Assembly (NCBI GenBank): GCA_019695035.1 | Contig: JAIBAU010000001.1 | Coordinates: 1 to 64,000, forward strand | Length of the DNA: 64,000 bases | From: Caulobacteraceae bacterium | GTDB taxonomy: Bacteria > Pseudomonadota > Alphaproteobacteria > Caulobacterales > Caulobacteraceae | Reading direction: 5' to 3' | In this document: piece after piece, positions 30,187 to 64,000 of the stretch | Layout: each line of letters starts with the position of its first letter | Numbering within the stretch: position 1 is the stretch's first letter | The notes under the pieces: generated by a model | What the model was told of the DNA's origin: nothing | Databases searched by the model: none | The model's input: only the letters and a program-made list of their open reading frames with translations | Position numbers and translations under genes: made by a program

Positions 30187-30270
30187 TCCACGGCCGTACA
30201 AGGCGGCCCTAACCGTTGTCCTTGCAGGGCTCCGGGAGGGATACGACCAATTCTGTCGCATTCCGGAAAA

Positions 30271-30291
30271 GAACATATTGCGAACGAGAAC
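30271..30291. promoter_or_regulatory. LexA SOS box of recA (GAAC-N7-GAAC)
   Basis: GAAC at 30271-30274 and 30282-30285 with exactly seven bases between is the reverse complement of the alphaproteobacterial SOS consensus GTTC-N7-GTTC. A third GAAC follows at 30288-30291. It lies 90-110 bp before the recA start. Confidence 0.75.
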
Positions 30292-57110: not shown

Positions 57111-58073
57111 ATGACGTTCCGGACCGCGGTCGTCTCGACCGCCCTTTGCCTGGCCGTTCTGGCGGGCGGCTGCGGGCACATCCCGATGCCGTCGCCCGAC
57201 CGGCCGCGCGGCGGCCGGCTGATGGACGACTTGCGCGTCCTGTCGGCCGACGACATGGAGGGGCGCCTGGCGGGCAGCCGCGGCTCGATCCGGGCGCGGG
57301 CCTACATCCTGAACCGGTTCAAGCAGGAAGGCCTGCGCCCCTTGCCGGGCGGCTGGCTGCAGACCTTCGAGTTCAGCACCCGTCGGGCGCCGGACGACGT
57401 GGTGCGCGGGACCAACATCATCGGCTGGGTCGAGGGCCGGCGGCATCCGGACCAGTTCATCGTGGTCTCCGCCCACTACGACCACGTCGGCCTGCGCGAC
57501 GGCCAGATCTACAATGGGGCGGACGACAACGCCTCGGGCGTGGCGGCGCTGTTCGAGATCGCCCGGCGCCTGCGCGGTCACGCGCCGGACCATTCGGTGA
57601 TCTTCGTCGCCTTCGACGCCGAGGAGGCCGGGCTGAAGGGGGCCGAGGCCTTCGTGAAAAAGCCTCCGGCGCCCTTGGACCAGATCGTGTTCAACCTGAA
57701 CCTGGACATGGTCTCGCGCCTCGACAAGGGCGAGATCTATGCGGTCGGGACCTACCAGTATCCGGAGCTGCGCAGCCCGCTGGAACAGGTCGCGCAAGGG
57801 GCCAAGGTGACGCTGCGTTTCGGACGGGACACGCCGCAGGACGCCGAGCGCAACCACTGGGTCGAGCTCTCCGACCAGGAGCCGTTTTACAGGGCGGGCG
57901 TGCCGTTTCTGTTCTTCAGCGTGGACGACCACGCCGACTACCACGAGCCCACGGATGACGCCGAGCGGATCCCGGTGTCCCTGTTCGAGGCTGCGGTGGA
58001 TCTGATCGCGCGGTCGTTCCACGCGGTGGACACCATGGATCTGGCGACGCTGAAGACCCAGTCGCACCGCTGA
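57111..58073 (+). CDS. M28-family metallopeptidase lipoprotein
   Basis: 320 aa. A lipobox (VLAGGC) ends the signal. Zinc-site motifs of M28 peptidases: VSAHYDHVG (His, Asp), GADDNASGVAALFEIARRL (Asp), FVAFDAEEAGLKGAEAFV (two Glu) and a late His (FSVDDHADYHEPTDD). An aminopeptidase on the periplasmic face is likely. It follows the 204-aa lipoprotein with a 4-bp gap; a parS-like palindrome starts 3 bp after its stop. Confidence 0.9.
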   Translation: MTFRTAVVSTALCLAVLAGGCGHIPMPSPDRPRGGRLMDDLRVLSADDMEGRLAGSRGSIRARAYILNRFKQEGLRPLPGGWLQTFEFSTRRAPDDVVRGTNIIGWVEGRRHPDQFIVVSAHYDHVGLRDGQIYNGADDNASGVAALFEIARRLRGHAPDHSVIFVAFDAEEAGLKGAEAFVKKPPAPLDQIVFNLNLDMVSRLDKGEIYAVGTYQYPELRSPLEQVAQGAKVTLRFGRDTPQDAERNHWVELSDQEPFYRAGVPFLFFSVDDHADYHEPTDDAERIPVSLFEAAVDLIARSFHAVDTMDLATLKTQSHR

Positions 58074-58076
58074 GTG

Positions 58077-58092
58077 CGTTTCACGTGAAACA
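58077..58092. other. parS-like ParB-binding palindrome
   Basis: The 16-mer CGTTTCACGTGAAACA matches the parS consensus TGTTTCACGTGAAACA at 15 of 16 bases, and the central 14 bp (58078-58091) are a perfect palindrome. It starts 3 bp after the M28 stop and is followed by a small hairpin CACGAC-N7-GTCGTG (58091-58096 with 58104-58109). No parA or parB gene is in the window. Confidence 0.75.
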
Positions 58093-58151
58093 CGACCGCT
58101 TTCGTCGTGCTTCATGAGGAATTACTTCGGTAAGACAAGACGATAGAGCGG

Positions 58152-58190
58152 CCTGTTGAACACATTTCTCGTTCAGCAGGCACGCTTTTT
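58152..58190 (+). terminator. Terminator of the M28 peptidase operon
   Basis: A 10-bp stem CCTGTTGAAC/GTTCAGCAGG (58152-58161 with 58171-58180; one T-G wobble) with a nine-base loop, followed after five bases by TTTTT (58186-58190). Confidence 0.65.
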
Positions 58191-58248
58191 CGGCCTGTTG
58201 GCTCCGATTCCCGGCGCCCGGGCGGATTCGCCCGGCGCGCGCCCGGAG

Positions 58249-58713
58249 TCAGGCGTCGGCGGCGATCCGCGCGCTGACGATCTTGCCGGGGTGGGCGGGA
58301 GGCTCGCCCTTGGGCAGGGCGTCGACATTGTCCATGCCCTCGGTGACCTCGCCCCAGACCGTGTACTGGCGGTCGAGGAAGCGGGCGTCATCGAAGCAGA
58401 TGAAGAACTGGCTGTTGGCGCTGTTCGGGTCCGACGAGCGGGCCATGGAGCAGACGCCCCGGACGTGCGGCTCGGCCGAGAACTCGGCCTTCAGGTTCGG
58501 CTTGTCCGAGCCCGAGTAGCCGGTGCCGGTGGGATCGCCGCCCTGGGCCATGAAGCCCGGGATGACGCGGTGGAAGACCACGCCGTCGTAGAAGCCCTCG
58601 CGCGCCAGCTCCTTGATGCGCGCGACGTGGCCGGGGGCCAGGTCCGGGCGCAGGCGGATGGTCACGGGACCCGTGTCGAGGGTCAGGATGAGGGTGTTTT
58701 CGGCGTCGGCCAT
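58249..58713 (-). CDS. Peptidyl-prolyl cis-trans isomerase, cyclophilin type
   Basis: 154 aa from ATG 58713 (MADAENTLILTLDTG). Cyclophilin core: FYDGVVFHRVIPGFMAQGGDPTGTGYSG, with the active-site Arg and Phe/Met, and SQFFICFDDARFLDRQYTVWGEVTEGM. No signal peptide, so cytoplasmic (PpiB-like). Diverges from ohr. Confidence 0.95.
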   Translation of the reverse strand: MADAENTLILTLDTGPVTIRLRPDLAPGHVARIKELAREGFYDGVVFHRVIPGFMAQGGDPTGTGYSGSDKPNLKAEFSAEPHVRGVCSMARSSDPNSANSQFFICFDDARFLDRQYTVWGEVTEGMDNVDALPKGEPPAHPGKIVSARIAADA

Positions 58714-58781
58714 TTTCGGGGGGCTCCGCATTCTGGGGTTGGCGCCTACATAGAGGGCGCACGCCGCAGGAGAAAGCGCCA

Positions 58782-59207
58782 ATGACCCCGCTCTACACCG
58801 CCGAAGCCACCGTCACGGGATCCGGCCGCGCCGGCGGCCGCGGACAGACCTCGGACGGCCGCCTCAAGGCCGAGTTCTCCATGCCGCGCGAGCTGGGCGG
58901 GCCGGGCGGCGAGGGGACCAACCCCGAACAGCTCGTCAGCCTGGGCTATGCGGCCTGTTTCGAGAGCGCGCTGCACTTCGTGGCCGGCAAGCATGGCCGC
59001 AAGCTGGACAATCCCTCGGTTACGGTTCGGACAGGGATCGGCCGCGGCGAGGGCGGCGGATTCCAGTTCGTCTTCGACATCGAGGCCGAGCTGCCCGGAG
59101 TCGATCGCGCCGATGCCGAGGCCCTGGTCGCCGAGGCGCACGCGGTTTGCCCCTACTCGAACGCGTTCCGCGACGGGGCGCCCGCCAGCGCGCGGCTGAA
59201 GGACTAG
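58782..59207 (+). CDS. ohr: Organic hydroperoxide resistance protein (Ohr/OsmC family)
   Basis: 141 aa. The two reactive cysteines are present: Cys59 (GYAACFESALHFVAG) and Cys123 (AHAVCPYSNAF); the Arg-containing N-terminal strand is MPLYTAEATVTGSGRAGGRG-like. Ohr reduces fatty and organic hydroperoxides using lipoyl partners. No OhrR regulator is seen alongside. Divergent from the cyclophilin gene with a 68-bp gap. Confidence 0.9.
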   Translation: MTPLYTAEATVTGSGRAGGRGQTSDGRLKAEFSMPRELGGPGGEGTNPEQLVSLGYAACFESALHFVAGKHGRKLDNPSVTVRTGIGRGEGGGFQFVFDIEAELPGVDRADAEALVAEAHAVCPYSNAFRDGAPASARLKD

Positions 59208-60243: not shown

Positions 60244-60301
60244 GTGAGGCTCGCCGGATTGGGTGTCGTCTCAGGAGTGTAATCATTCCGGAGCCTCCCC
60301 C

Positions 60302-63300
60302 GTGCAATCCGAAAACGTCCTGGCCGAAACCCAGATCGCCGTCGTCGAGACCCCTGCCCCGCAGGCGCTGAGCACTGCGGCCACCCAGCTGCCGGCCGAG
60401 CCGATCACCGTCGCCGACCAGGGCCAGCCCGGTGCGATCGTGAACGCCATCATGGGCTCGACGCCCGGACTGACGGTGGACGCCAACTCCATCGTCATCA
60501 CCGGCGGCGCGACCTCGGTCGGCTACTATGACGGAAGCCTGAGCGGCCTCGGCATCGGGGCGGGGCTGCTGATCACCTCGGGCACCATGCCCGGCTACTC
60601 GAACACCGTCGGCTGGTTCGGACAGGACAATGGCCTGAACGGCGACCCGGCCCTGGATGCGGTGATCAACCCGATCTTCCAGACCACGTCCTACGACGCC
60701 ACCACCATCACCTTCGATTTCACGGTCACCGACCCGACCATCACCGGCATCAGCTTCAACATCGTCTTCGGCACCGATGAATACCCCGAGTGGGTGGACC
60801 AGTTCGTCGACATCGCGGTGATCCTGGTGAACGGTGTCAATGTCGCCTACTTCGGCAACGACCCCAACGCGCCGCTCAGCGTGATCAGCCAGAACCTGGC
60901 GGCGGGCTATTTCATCGACAACAGCAACAGCAACCTGCCGATCGAGTACGACGGCGTGTCCAACGTGTTGACCGTCTTCGCGCCGGTGCACCAGGGCGTG
61001 AACACCATCACCATCGGCATCGCCGACACCGGCGACCACATCTACGACAGCGGCCTGTTCATCTCGGGCCTCACCGGCACCACGATCCCCGGCAGCGGCG
61101 TCAGCCAGGATGTGCCGTGCACCGAGGGGAACGACGACAAGACGGGCGGCGACGCCAGCGACAGCATCAACGGCCTCGGCGGCGACGACCACCTCTCGGG
61201 AGGCGGAGGCAACGACATCATCCAGGGCGGGACGGGCGCCGACATCCTCGACGGCGGGACCGGCAACGACAGCCTGGATGGCGGCGACGGCGCCGACAGC
61301 ATCTCTGCCGGAGCCGGTGACGACCTGATCAAGTTCTCGGGCATGGACGCCATCGACGGCGGCGACGGGCAGGACGAGGTGATCTTCGACCTGTCGGCCT
61401 CGCAGGACGGGGAGACCCTGGACTTCAGCAATCCCTCGGCGGTGCAGACCCTGGTCGACGGCTCGACCGTGGTGAACGTCGAGACCATCGTCTTCACCGG
61501 CGGCCTTGGGGCGGACGTGATCACCGGCGGCGCCAACGCCGACCTGATCGCCGGCGGCGGAGGCGATGACGTGCTGGCCGGCGGCGGCGGGGGCGACACC
61601 CTGGACGGCGGCGACGGCTTCGACACCGCCGTCTTCACCGGAGCTGCGGCCGACTACCTGATCACCACGGGGGCCGGAGGCGAGCTGATCGTCGAGGATC
61701 TGCGTCCGGGAAGCCCGGACGGGATCACCACCCTGATCAACATCGAACAGGTGCAGTTCGCCGACGGCCTGCAGGATCCGGCTCCGCTGGTGAGCCACGG
61801 CGAAACGATCCTCGGGACCAGCGACGACGATGTCATCAGCGGCTCGCAGACCGTTCCCGGCCAGGGCTTCGCCACCGACTTCGCCGATATCATCACGGCC
61901 GGCGACGGCGACGACATCGTCTACGGCCTCGGCGGCGACGACACCATCGACCTCGGGGCCAACAACGATATCGCCGACGGCGGCGACGGCGACGACTCGA
62001 TCACCGGCGGCGACGGCGATGACGAAATCGACGGCGGGGCCGGCGTGGACATCGCGGTCTTCTCCGGTAACCGCGCCGACTACCTGGTCGTCGAGCAGGG
62101 CGATGGCTACCTCATCACCGACCTGCGGGGCGGTTCGCCGGATGGCCAGGACCAGCTGGTCAATGTCGAGTTCGCCCAGTTCGCCGACGGCTTGGTCAAG
62201 CTGACCATCGGCAGCGCGCCGGAAATCGGCGTGGGCGACACGGTGGCCGAGGTTATCGAGCCCGAGGCGGCGTCGGGACTGACCAGCGTCAACGGCTCGT
62301 TCGAGTTCAGCGACGCCGACCACGACGACACCCACACCGTCAGCGTGGTGGGCGTGTCCGGGGACCAGACCGGGGTGACCTTCCAGGCCACCCTGGATCA
62401 TGACACGGACGGCGAGAACCCGGGCGCGGTCAGCTGGACCGTTCAGGTCGACACGGCGGTGATCCAGTCGCTTGCTCAGGGCCAGGTACGGACGATCCTC
62501 TACACCGTGGCCGTGACAGACAGCGCGGGCAATGAGACCGATCAGGTCGTGGCCGTGGAGATCATCGGCACCAACGATGCGCCCATCGTCAATGCGACCG
62601 CGGCCATCGGGGTGCCCTCCGACGGCGGTCCGGTCACGGTCTCGGCGATGACCGGCGTGAGCGACGGCGACCTTGGCGGCAAGCCGCACGTGGGCTCGGT
62701 GGGCGACCTCCCGGCCGGCGTGGTCTTCGACCCGGTCACCCAGACCTTCACCGTCGATCCGCTCGACGCCGCCCTGGTCACCCAGACCGGCGGCTCCGAC
62801 TCGGTCATCGTGGTGAACTACACGATCACCGACGGCTTCACCTCGACGCCCGCCAGCCTGACCTTCAACGTGGCCGGGTCGGGGGTCGACATCATCGGCA
62901 CCGCCGGCAACGACATGATCGACGGGGTGCAGGCTCCGGCCGGCCAGCCGCACGCCTCGGGCGGCGCCGACGTCATCAACGGCCGCGCCGGCGACGACAC
63001 TCTCTTCGGCCTGAATGGCGACGACTATCTCATCGGCGAGAGCGGCACGGACACGCTCTGGGGCGGCAACGGCGCCGACACCCTGGATGGCGGCTCGCGC
63101 ATCGACTACCTGCACGGCGGCTCGGGCGACGACGTGTTCGTGGTGCGCGGCCTCGAGGCGCTGCAGGACGTGTTCGACGGGGGTTCGACCGGCGAGACCC
63201 TGGGCGACGCCATCCAGGTGGACGGCGTCGGCGATGTGACCATCCAGGGCTTCAACGCGACGGCCAGCGGTATCGAGCGCTGGGTCGGCAACGGCGCCGG

Positions 63301-64000
63301 TCTGCTGGGCCGGGCAGGGTCGGAGACCTTTGACCTCAGCGGTCTCGACGCGATCACCGGCCTCGCCTGGGTCGACGCCGACGGCGGCAACGATACCCTG
63401 ATCGGCTCCCAATTCGACGACGACCTGCGCGGCGGGACGGGCAACGACAGCCTCGACGGCGGCCTGGGGGCCGACCACCTGACCGGCGGCGCGGGCAACG
63501 ACATCTTCCATGTCGACGACGCGGGCGACGTGGTGACCGAGCTGGACGGCGAGGGGACCGACAAGGTCTTCACCCGCGTCGACTTCAGCCTGGCCGGCAC
63601 GGCGGTGGAGAACCTGGCGGCGGTGGGCGCGCTCGGCCTGCAGCTGACGGGCAACGTACTGAACAACATCATCACCGGGGGGGCCGGTGGAGACCGGCTC
63701 GACGGCGGGGCCGGGAACGACACCCTCGACGGGGGTGACGGCGACGACACCCTGATCGGCGGGCTGGGCAGCGACATCATCACCGGCGGCGCCGGCCTCG
63801 ACACCGTCGACTATTCGGGCGCGGCCTCGGCGGTTTCGGTCAGCCTGAACACGGCCAGCAACCAGAATACCCTGGGCGGCGGCATCGACCGCATCTCGGG
63901 CGTCGAGAACGTCACGGGCTCAGCCTTCGACGACACCCTCACCGGCTCCAGCGCCGCCAACGTGCTGGACGGCGGGGCCGGGGCCGACGTGCTCAACGGC
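60302..64000 (+). CDS. RTX/choice-of-anchor L giant secreted protein (5' part)
   Basis: GTG 60302 (GGAG at 60290-60293) opens a frame that stays open for 1233 codons to the window end. There is no signal peptide, as for type I secretion substrates. Domains in order: choice-of-anchor L-like region (about 58-260; FGTDEYPEWVDQFVDIAVILVNG), RTX nonapeptide blocks (GGxGxDxLx; about 276-343, 400-446, 500-586, 860-946, 1033-1066, 1120-1166 and the end), and a VCBS/cadherin-like stretch ending GTNDAPIV (about 633-760). A 50-residue unit with FADG and ADYL is repeated twice (from about 440 and 580). Calcium-dependent folding outside the cell is expected. Probably an adhesin or surface-layer-type protein. 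Confidence 0.88.
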   Translation, partial: MQSENVLAETQIAVVETPAPQALSTAATQLPAEPITVADQGQPGAIVNAIMGSTPGLTVDANSIVITGGATSVGYYDGSLSGLGIGAGLLITSGTMPGYSNTVGWFGQDNGLNGDPALDAVINPIFQTTSYDATTITFDFTVTDPTITGISFNIVFGTDEYPEWVDQFVDIAVILVNGVNVAYFGNDPNAPLSVISQNLAAGYFIDNSNSNLPIEYDGVSNVLTVFAPVHQGVNTITIGIADTGDHIYDSGLFISGLTGTTIPGSGVSQDVPCTEGNDDKTGGDASDSINGLGGDDHLSGGGGNDIIQGGTGADILDGGTGNDSLDGGDGADSISAGAGDDLIKFSGMDAIDGGDGQDEVIFDLSASQDGETLDFSNPSAVQTLVDGSTVVNVETIVFTGGLGADVITGGANADLIAGGGGDDVLAGGGGGDTLDGGDGFDTAVFTGAAADYLITTGAGGELIVEDLRPGSPDGITTLINIEQVQFADGLQDPAPLVSHGETILGTSDDDVISGSQTVPGQGFATDFADIITAGDGDDIVYGLGGDDTIDLGANNDIADGGDGDDSITGGDGDDEIDGGAGVDIAVFSGNRADYLVVEQGDGYLITDLRGGSPDGQDQLVNVEFAQFADGLVKLTIGSAPEIGVGDTVAEVIEPEAASGLTSVNGSFEFSDADHDDTHTVSVVGVSGDQTGVTFQATLDHDTDGENPGAVSWTVQVDTAVIQSLAQGQVRTILYTVAVTDSAGNETDQVVAVEIIGTNDAPIVNATAAIGVPSDGGPVTVSAMTGVSDGDLGGKPHVGSVGDLPAGVVFDPVTQTFTVDPLDAALVTQTGGSDSVIVVNYTITDGFTSTPASLTFNVAGSGVDIIGTAGNDMIDGVQAPAGQPHASGGADVINGRAGDDTLFGLNGDDYLIGESGTDTLWGGNGADTLDGGSRIDYLHGGSGDDVFVVRGLEALQDVFDGGSTGETLGDAIQVDGVGDVTIQGFNATASGIERWVGNGAGLLGRAGSETFDLSGLDAITGLAWVDADGGNDTLIGSQFDDDLRGGTGNDSLDGGLGADHLTGGAGNDIFHVDDAGDVVTELDGEGTDKVFTRVDFSLAGTAVENLAAVGALGLQLTGNVLNNIITGGAGGDRLDGGAGNDTLDGGDGDDTLIGGLGSDIITGGAGLDTVDYSGAASAVSVSLNTASNQNTLGGGIDRISGVENVTGSAFDDTLTGSSAANVLDGGAGADVLNG
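61129..64000 (+). repeat. RTX calcium-binding nonapeptide repeats
   Basis: Gly/Asp-rich GGxGxDxUx units occur in six or more clusters through the RTX gene (for example 61129-61330, 61500-61640, 61800-62060, 62880-63140 and 63660-63800). The repeats are degenerate at DNA level. They also create long spurious open frames on the other strand. Confidence 0.85.

Follow-up and report, generated by a model that had tools for sequence, protein, structure and literature searches.

The window considered here, i.e. the whole 64,000-nucleotide stretch that was analysed, forms the first 64 kb of a 305,570-bp contig (C19) in a draft genome of 2,907,029 bp, which is 99.98% complete and divided into 64 contigs. 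In it, an M28-family peptidase gene and a gene for a cyclophilin-type prolyl isomerase converge on a short intergenic region (Table 1). Four bases separate the stop codon of the peptidase gene from a perfect 14-bp palindrome, GTTTCACGTGAAAC, and the 16-mer that encloses it at 58077-58092, CGTTTCACGTGAAACA, agrees in 15 of its 16 bases with TGTTTCACGTGAAACA, which we take to be the 16-bp consensus of parS. The palindrome is followed by a dyad, a spacer and a pair of 21-bp repeat units. Further along, RTX calcium-binding repeats (PF00353; 27-base period) are encoded by a long ORF that occupies 60263-64000 and continues past the end of the window. The ParB of the genome and its gene content suggest that the organism belongs with Caulobacter and its relatives.

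Table 1. Features around the parS palindrome (window coordinates) and contigs bearing scattered copies
Feature	Position	Strand	Remarks
M28-family peptidase gene	57111..58073	+	Pfam PF04389, 1.1e-42
parS palindrome	58078..58091	.	14-bp exact; 16-mer 58077-58092 with 1 mismatch
17-bp dyad ACGAC-CGCTTTC-GTCGT	58092..58108	+	abuts parS directly; conserved in all 11 copies
AT-richer spacer	58109..58182	+	G+C 45% over 58109-58172 vs 71% over next 65 bases
Two 21-bp repeat units, second degenerate	58183..58224	+	weight-matrix scores 25.5 and -2.3
Cyclophilin-type prolyl isomerase gene	58249..58782	-	convergent neighbour; Pfam PF00160, 9.3e-41
Scattered parS	C7, C11, C19, C27, C47, C51, C57, C62		one exact 14-mer on each contig

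A search that tolerates up to three mismatches to parS recovers one match in the window against 1.03 expected from shuffles, and a loose match alone therefore means nothing. For the exact 14-mer, Markov models (orders 0-4), for which 226 kb of the same genome, parS sites included, served as training data, give an expectation of 4e-5 to 8e-5 occurrences per 64 kb and of 0.002 to 0.004 (about 0.003) per genome. The genome contains 11 exact copies, none at one mismatch and one at two mismatches (on C13), and a reversed control pattern has no match in it; the full 16-mer is present in eight of the 11 copies. Thus, both claims from which the sequence-only reading had started, namely that the site is a near-perfect parS and that such a palindrome is unlikely to arise by chance, are borne out.

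Distribution of the palindrome and its cognate ParB

Three of the 11 copies, termed canonical here, lie within about 2.5 kb on contig C42 beside the genes parA, parB, gidB, gidA, mnmE and rho, and the remaining eight are scattered over as many contigs. The 14-mer of the window is identical to that of the three canonical sites. The checks that had been proposed along with the claims, a scan for all copies and the location of parAB, show that the window site is not isolated, and that the parAB cluster with its three sites lies on C42 and the window on C19. The absence of partition genes from the neighborhood had likewise been read correctly, as the window has no ParB gene and the only one in the genome is on C42. 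From the contig ends alone, the window site is at least 67.7 kb (58.1 + 9.6) from the nearest canonical copy, and consequently lies outside the range of about 20 kb from parAB and the usual cluster in which it would count as an ordinary parS; origin-proximal clustering, a usual but not defining property of parS, is not seen for it. An origin shift, which the sequence-only reading had entertained, is not supported, given the normal gene order of the cluster and its three sites on another contig.

By simple ORF picking, none of the eight scattered copies falls inside a gene; four lie between convergent and four between tandem genes, with none between divergent genes. In seven of them (the exception being C51) parS starts 4-94 bases past a stop codon, and the dyad comes after it. 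Orientation relative to the genes fits in three of the four copies between tandem genes, the only informative ones, which is not significant. On four of the eight contigs, core genes lie right beside the scattered site, namely rplT-pheS (C11), etfA (C62), a gene of the dihydrolipoamide-dehydrogenase type (C51) and pmbA (C47).

The genome encodes one ParB, with ParB_N, HTH_ParB and ParB_C domains, and the single matches to ParB_N and HTH_ParB found genome-wide both fall in this chromosomal protein. No second ParB-type protein was found, and hence no ParB paralogue by which a Noc-type second regulon would be recognized, nor any candidate for the ParB-like regulator that had been suggested as an alternative reader of the site. 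The recognition helix of the protein, GKSRSHV-NT, is the same as that of the solved ParB 6t1f/7bm8, presumably the Caulobacter ParB; a cognate ParB with a matching recognition helix, as expected for a chromosomal parS, is therefore present. A search for the SMC hinge matched none of five genomes, the Caulobacter vibrioides control being silent as well. Caulobacter ParB in E. coli nucleates at single introduced sites, from which its spreading does not exceed about 2 kb (PMC5815017). The proposal of an outlying ParB nucleation site is strengthened by the 14-mer shared with the canonical sites and by the one ParB with its conserved helix; binding of this ParB to a perfect parS we infer from the literature.

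A composite element at the palindrome

In all 11 copies, those on C42 included, parS is accompanied by a 17-bp dyad of the form ACGAC-N7-GTCGT, with columns 15, 17, 18, 19, 29 and 30, counted from the first parS base, being invariant. Its strict form, AYGACCRNNNNYGTCGY, is matched exactly by eight of the 11. The copies were oriented by the dyad itself, which biases them toward the motif; when both sides of every site are scored alike, however, all 11 copies reach 8-10 out of 10 (nine score 10, and the weakest of the canonical ones, C42:62265, scores 8), as against 7 or less at the 84 parS sites examined in 25 other genomes of the family. These 84 comprise 45 sites in 20 genomes from three genera and 39 in the genomes G102, G060, G042, G122 and G015.

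Genome-wide, the strict dyad has 20 matches, eight of them beside parS, and the reversed control has none. The notion that it marks a genome-wide regulon was rejected, as the 12 parS-free matches are by eye mostly coding, with one in the recA promoter and one seemingly intergenic (C19:104099). The former, ACGACCAATTCTGTCGC, lies at 30243-30259 of the window (recA being identified by eye), and a LexA-type box, GAACATATTGCGAAC (30271-30285), starts 11 bases after it; both the dyad and its proximity to the box may be due to chance.

The spacer has a G+C content of 36-50% in six of the eight scattered copies versus 62-71% further on, the exceptions being C27 and C57 (67% and 70%). Pairs of 21-bp units score above the cut-off in six scattered copies (C19, C7, C11, C27, C47 and C62), with a single unit at C57 and a doubtful case at C51, using a weight matrix trained on these same units, the window copy partly included. 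The spacer-bearing six and the repeat-bearing six coincide only in part. The pair in the window is weak, and better ones are found at C11, C62, C47, C27 and C7; similar arrays also occur without parS at three places (C19:102239, C35:16131 and C40:71297). The repeat core CGMTTTTCCGG is found 14 times in the genome, seven times within scattered elements (at five sites) and seven times elsewhere, the window copy having no exact match; since the reversed control gives 15 matches against these 14, the core has no genome-wide significance by itself. In 226 kb of sequence that was mostly chosen around parS, a somewhat wider version of the core has seven matches, every one of them 42-125 bp away from a scattered copy, and no repeat core was found near the canonical copies on C42.

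Past the dyad, the eight scattered copies are 35-60% identical, with several pairs above shuffled controls, and the parS is the same in all of them. The core therefore looks held by selection, and the kinship of the sequence past the dyad reads as old rather than as recent jumping. In a collection of bacterial genome contigs from which close relatives are possibly excluded, the strict 30-base composite matched two loci, on a Ramlibacter and a Streptomyces contig, which we take as chance, and in viral contigs it had no match.

Scattered parS sites across the family and their inferred positions

At least one exact copy of the 14-mer is carried by 365 of the 390 genomes of the family, most of which have one to three, normally close together, and a single genome exceeds the one studied here. 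The genomes with more than five copies, read by eye from the table, are G060 (15), the present genome (11), G102 (8) and G015 (7). The exact 14-mer is absent from all members examined of the genera g10 (G009, G026 and G039) and g17 (G016 and G030), and parS may therefore have drifted or been lost in them. In G015, a 2.0-Mb genome, the seven copies fall within 3.4 kb (C6:176312-179702), along with one at one mismatch; this is an ordinary cluster made denser. G102, a single contig of 3,471,236 bp, has a cluster of three copies next to mnmE and parAB, at 242.6-246.8 kb, and its five scattered copies are at 893.8, 986.2, 2695.4, 3433.0 and 3453.3 kb. Eight copies of G060 (91% complete, 7% contamination, 400 contigs) are on the parB contig and seven on others, and in G042 two are on the parB contig and three elsewhere, one of the latter inside an ORF. 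As scattered perfect parS sites are present in these three genomes too, scatter has arisen in more than one genus. Other peculiarities include an unusually dense stretch in G060 (C138, 4777-5116), where five exact parS sites form two groups (4777, 4815; 5026, 5065, 5103) with a spacing of 38-39 bases, and a sequence, TTTCAACACATT, that lies some 15 bases downstream of both the C55 and the C59 scattered sites of G042 and may be another lineage-specific tail, the third of its kind. Mobile-type genes, namely FitA-like/PIN, TacA/acetyltransferase and ParE toxin-antitoxin genes and one for a DUF6538 protein resembling an integrase, are found near four scattered sites (2695 and 3453 kb in G102; C328 and C250 in G060), and these sites may mark island edges.

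The scattered copies of these genomes show an extension of their own, GTTC-N7-GTTTCACGTGAAAC, at 5/5 sites in G102, 6/7 in G060 and 1/3 in G042. It occurs at none of the cluster copies of G102 (0/3) and G060 (0/8), at none of the 11 copies described here, and at none of the 45 sites in 20 genomes. The extension resembles what we take to be the alphaproteobacterial LexA box; the second half-box in G102 and G060 is GTTT rather than GTTC, and the LexA reading is kept as a lead only. The neighbors of the scattered sites in these two genomes include no evident SOS genes (judged by eye, and by Pfam for ten). An order-wide scan of 398 genomes with one GTTC-type pattern returned G102 (four sites) and one site in G167. 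In viral contigs, a narrow form of parS with GTTC gave three stretches and GTTC-N7-parS gave 70, against 37 and 48 for the offset controls N6 and N8, so that the lead toward phages is dismissed as mostly chance. As the viral excess over neighboring spacings is mild, the weight of the extension rests on G102, G060 and G042.

To place the unordered contigs of the present genome, genes neighboring the scattered sites were mapped onto G102, taken as closed and circular and as sharing their gene order. The distances to its parS cluster would then be about 466 kb for C62, 590 kb for C47, 688 kb for C11, 766 kb for C7, 884 kb for C57, about 1375 kb for C19 and about 1677 kb, out of a possible 1735 kb, for C51. 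C27 has no counterpart in G102; in G041, G118, G098, G108 and G059 its distance from parA is about 290-640 kb. Gene order is not fully kept: the two mapped neighbors of the window are separated by 22 kb in G102, and pheT, the marker for C11, is some 690 kb away from parA/mnmE in that genome but roughly 1650 kb away in G041 and 1800 kb in G108. The window site would lie about 1.4 Mb from the cluster if the gene order of G102 holds. In G102 the GC skew is noisy, and the AT skew switches sign around 1.8-2.0 Mb and is noisy elsewhere.

Alternative explanations and the candidate role of the element

Taking these observations together, we think it probable that the eight scattered parS sites are the heads of a conserved intergenic element, in which the 14-bp parS and the abutting 17-bp dyad are mostly followed by the spacer and the 21-bp repeats. 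With similar confidence, the sequence favors the window site being an origin-distal ParB nucleation site within this scattered set. The scattered copies are taken as controlled points of ParB nucleation because a lineage-specific dyad abuts canonical and scattered copies alike.

Some likelihood, though clearly a minor one, attaches to the scattered copies being relics of an intergenic repeat that dispersed long ago and happened to have parS at its head, in which case ParB may bind them to no cellular end. The relatedness of the sequence past parS and the dyad among C47, C62, C19, C11 and C7, above shuffled controls, and the parS-free arrays of similar 21-bp repeats are consistent with such an origin. 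However, there are no near-identical copies, divergence spares parS in all eight, no terminal repeats of the MITE or REP type are apparent by eye, and the canonical copies carry the dyad even though no repeat core adjoins them. That the palindrome is instead the operator of some other DNA-binding protein would account for the second motif at its side, and for the LexA-like half-box GTTC-N7 that overlaps scattered copies in G102 and G060 (and one of three in G042). We regard this as improbable, as the palindrome is identical to the canonical parS in a genome with one ParB-type protein, seven of the eight copies follow a stop codon rather than occupying a promoter position, and no sigma-70-like promoter match is found at the site.

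Division of the assembly into 64 unordered contigs leaves room for a second replicon or a moved origin that would turn the sites into ordinary origin-proximal ones; the core genes beside the sites on C11, C62, C51 and C47, the intact parAB-gidA-mnmE cluster on C42, and the scatter within the one molecule of G102 make this very improbable. The location of seven scattered copies 4-94 bases past a stop codon might also point to an element that acts as RNA, either terminating transcription of the upstream gene or structuring its 3' end. This seems least credible of all, as the sole terminator-like call in 57800-58500 lies inside the peptidase gene and not at the site, and six of the eight scattered copies, when folded as RNA, show no clear advantage over shuffles (z -1.65 to +0.17).

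Most bacteria cluster their parS, and a Bacillus study describes wide scatter as limited to a few lineages such as the Bacilli and as apparently counterproductive for SMC (PMC8357415). In Bacillus subtilis, eight parS sites span about 0.75 Mb (PMC8357415); work on origin-distal Spo0J sites of this organism is cited in a review (PMC7022226). Both B. subtilis and the present genome have parS beyond the immediate origin cluster, but here copies appear to reach mid-arm and ter-proximal positions, as judged from G102, and share a composite motif. Pseudomonas aeruginosa has ten parS sites, four near oriC and six dispersed, which resembles the present case in number and partial dispersal; however, the dispersed six are more than one base off the perfect palindrome and bind ParB more weakly, whereas all eight here are perfect 14-mers (PMC4368675). 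Caulobacter crescentus has the same palindrome class, the same ParB type and canonical copies beside parAB/gidA, but its sites are close to ori (PMC5815017), whereas eight of 11 lie elsewhere here, with the dyad and often with repeats. Scattered parS is thus already known in a few lineages, and the new feature is that all eight scattered copies are perfect and share one composite. We found no description of a scattered composite parS set in titles and abstract openings of an open-access library, which is not proof of absence. The composite centromere of plasmid P1 contains ParB boxes A and B, and is similar in that another conserved motif adjoins a ParB site; it differs in sequence and family, and reading of the second motif by ParB is only a candidate role here.

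The set is notable because, in the published Caulobacter tests, parS has to remain near its native cluster and extra mid-arm sites are harmful: cells tolerate an added parS cluster up to about 500 kb from the native one and, less well, near ter, and ectopic chromosomal parS are viable, with a ter-located one recruiting SMC (PMC5815017). As several of our copies map about 470-900 kb away on G102, either tolerance has evolved or the copies are controlled or weak. In the mechanism we propose, the single chromosomal ParB would load as a CTP clamp at each copy and slide one to two kilobases into the DNA on either side; the scattered copies would offer local points for SMC loading and for contact with ParA/MipZ, besides the main parAB cluster. 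The likeliest binder of the dyad is another protein, acting as a dimer, or else a second DNA-binding surface of ParB, and the bound factor may set, limit or time ParB loading. As canonical copies also carry the dyad (one weakly, with 8 of 10), one factor plausibly acts at both kinds of site, and such control might let the cell tolerate parS along its arms.

More broadly, it is conceivable, if rather unlikely, that several lineages of the Caulobacter family independently scattered parS as a gated element, each copy being fused to a lineage-specific site for a second protein, with ParB/SMC loading on the arms depending on the state of the cell. On this speculative view, the dyad ACGAC-N7-GTCGT here and the LexA-like half-box overlapping parS in G102 and G060 would be the sites of the second proteins, and loading on the arms would be switched on only in certain states, e.g. 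after DNA damage or at a stage of the cell cycle. The interest of the favored reading, that of scattered ParB nucleation sites under a shared composite, rests on the whole parS set and not on the single site in the window. The abutting dyad is a concrete candidate for the control of ParB/SMC entry, and a genome with eight perfect scattered parS sites represents a natural experiment on living with many ParB/SMC entry points.
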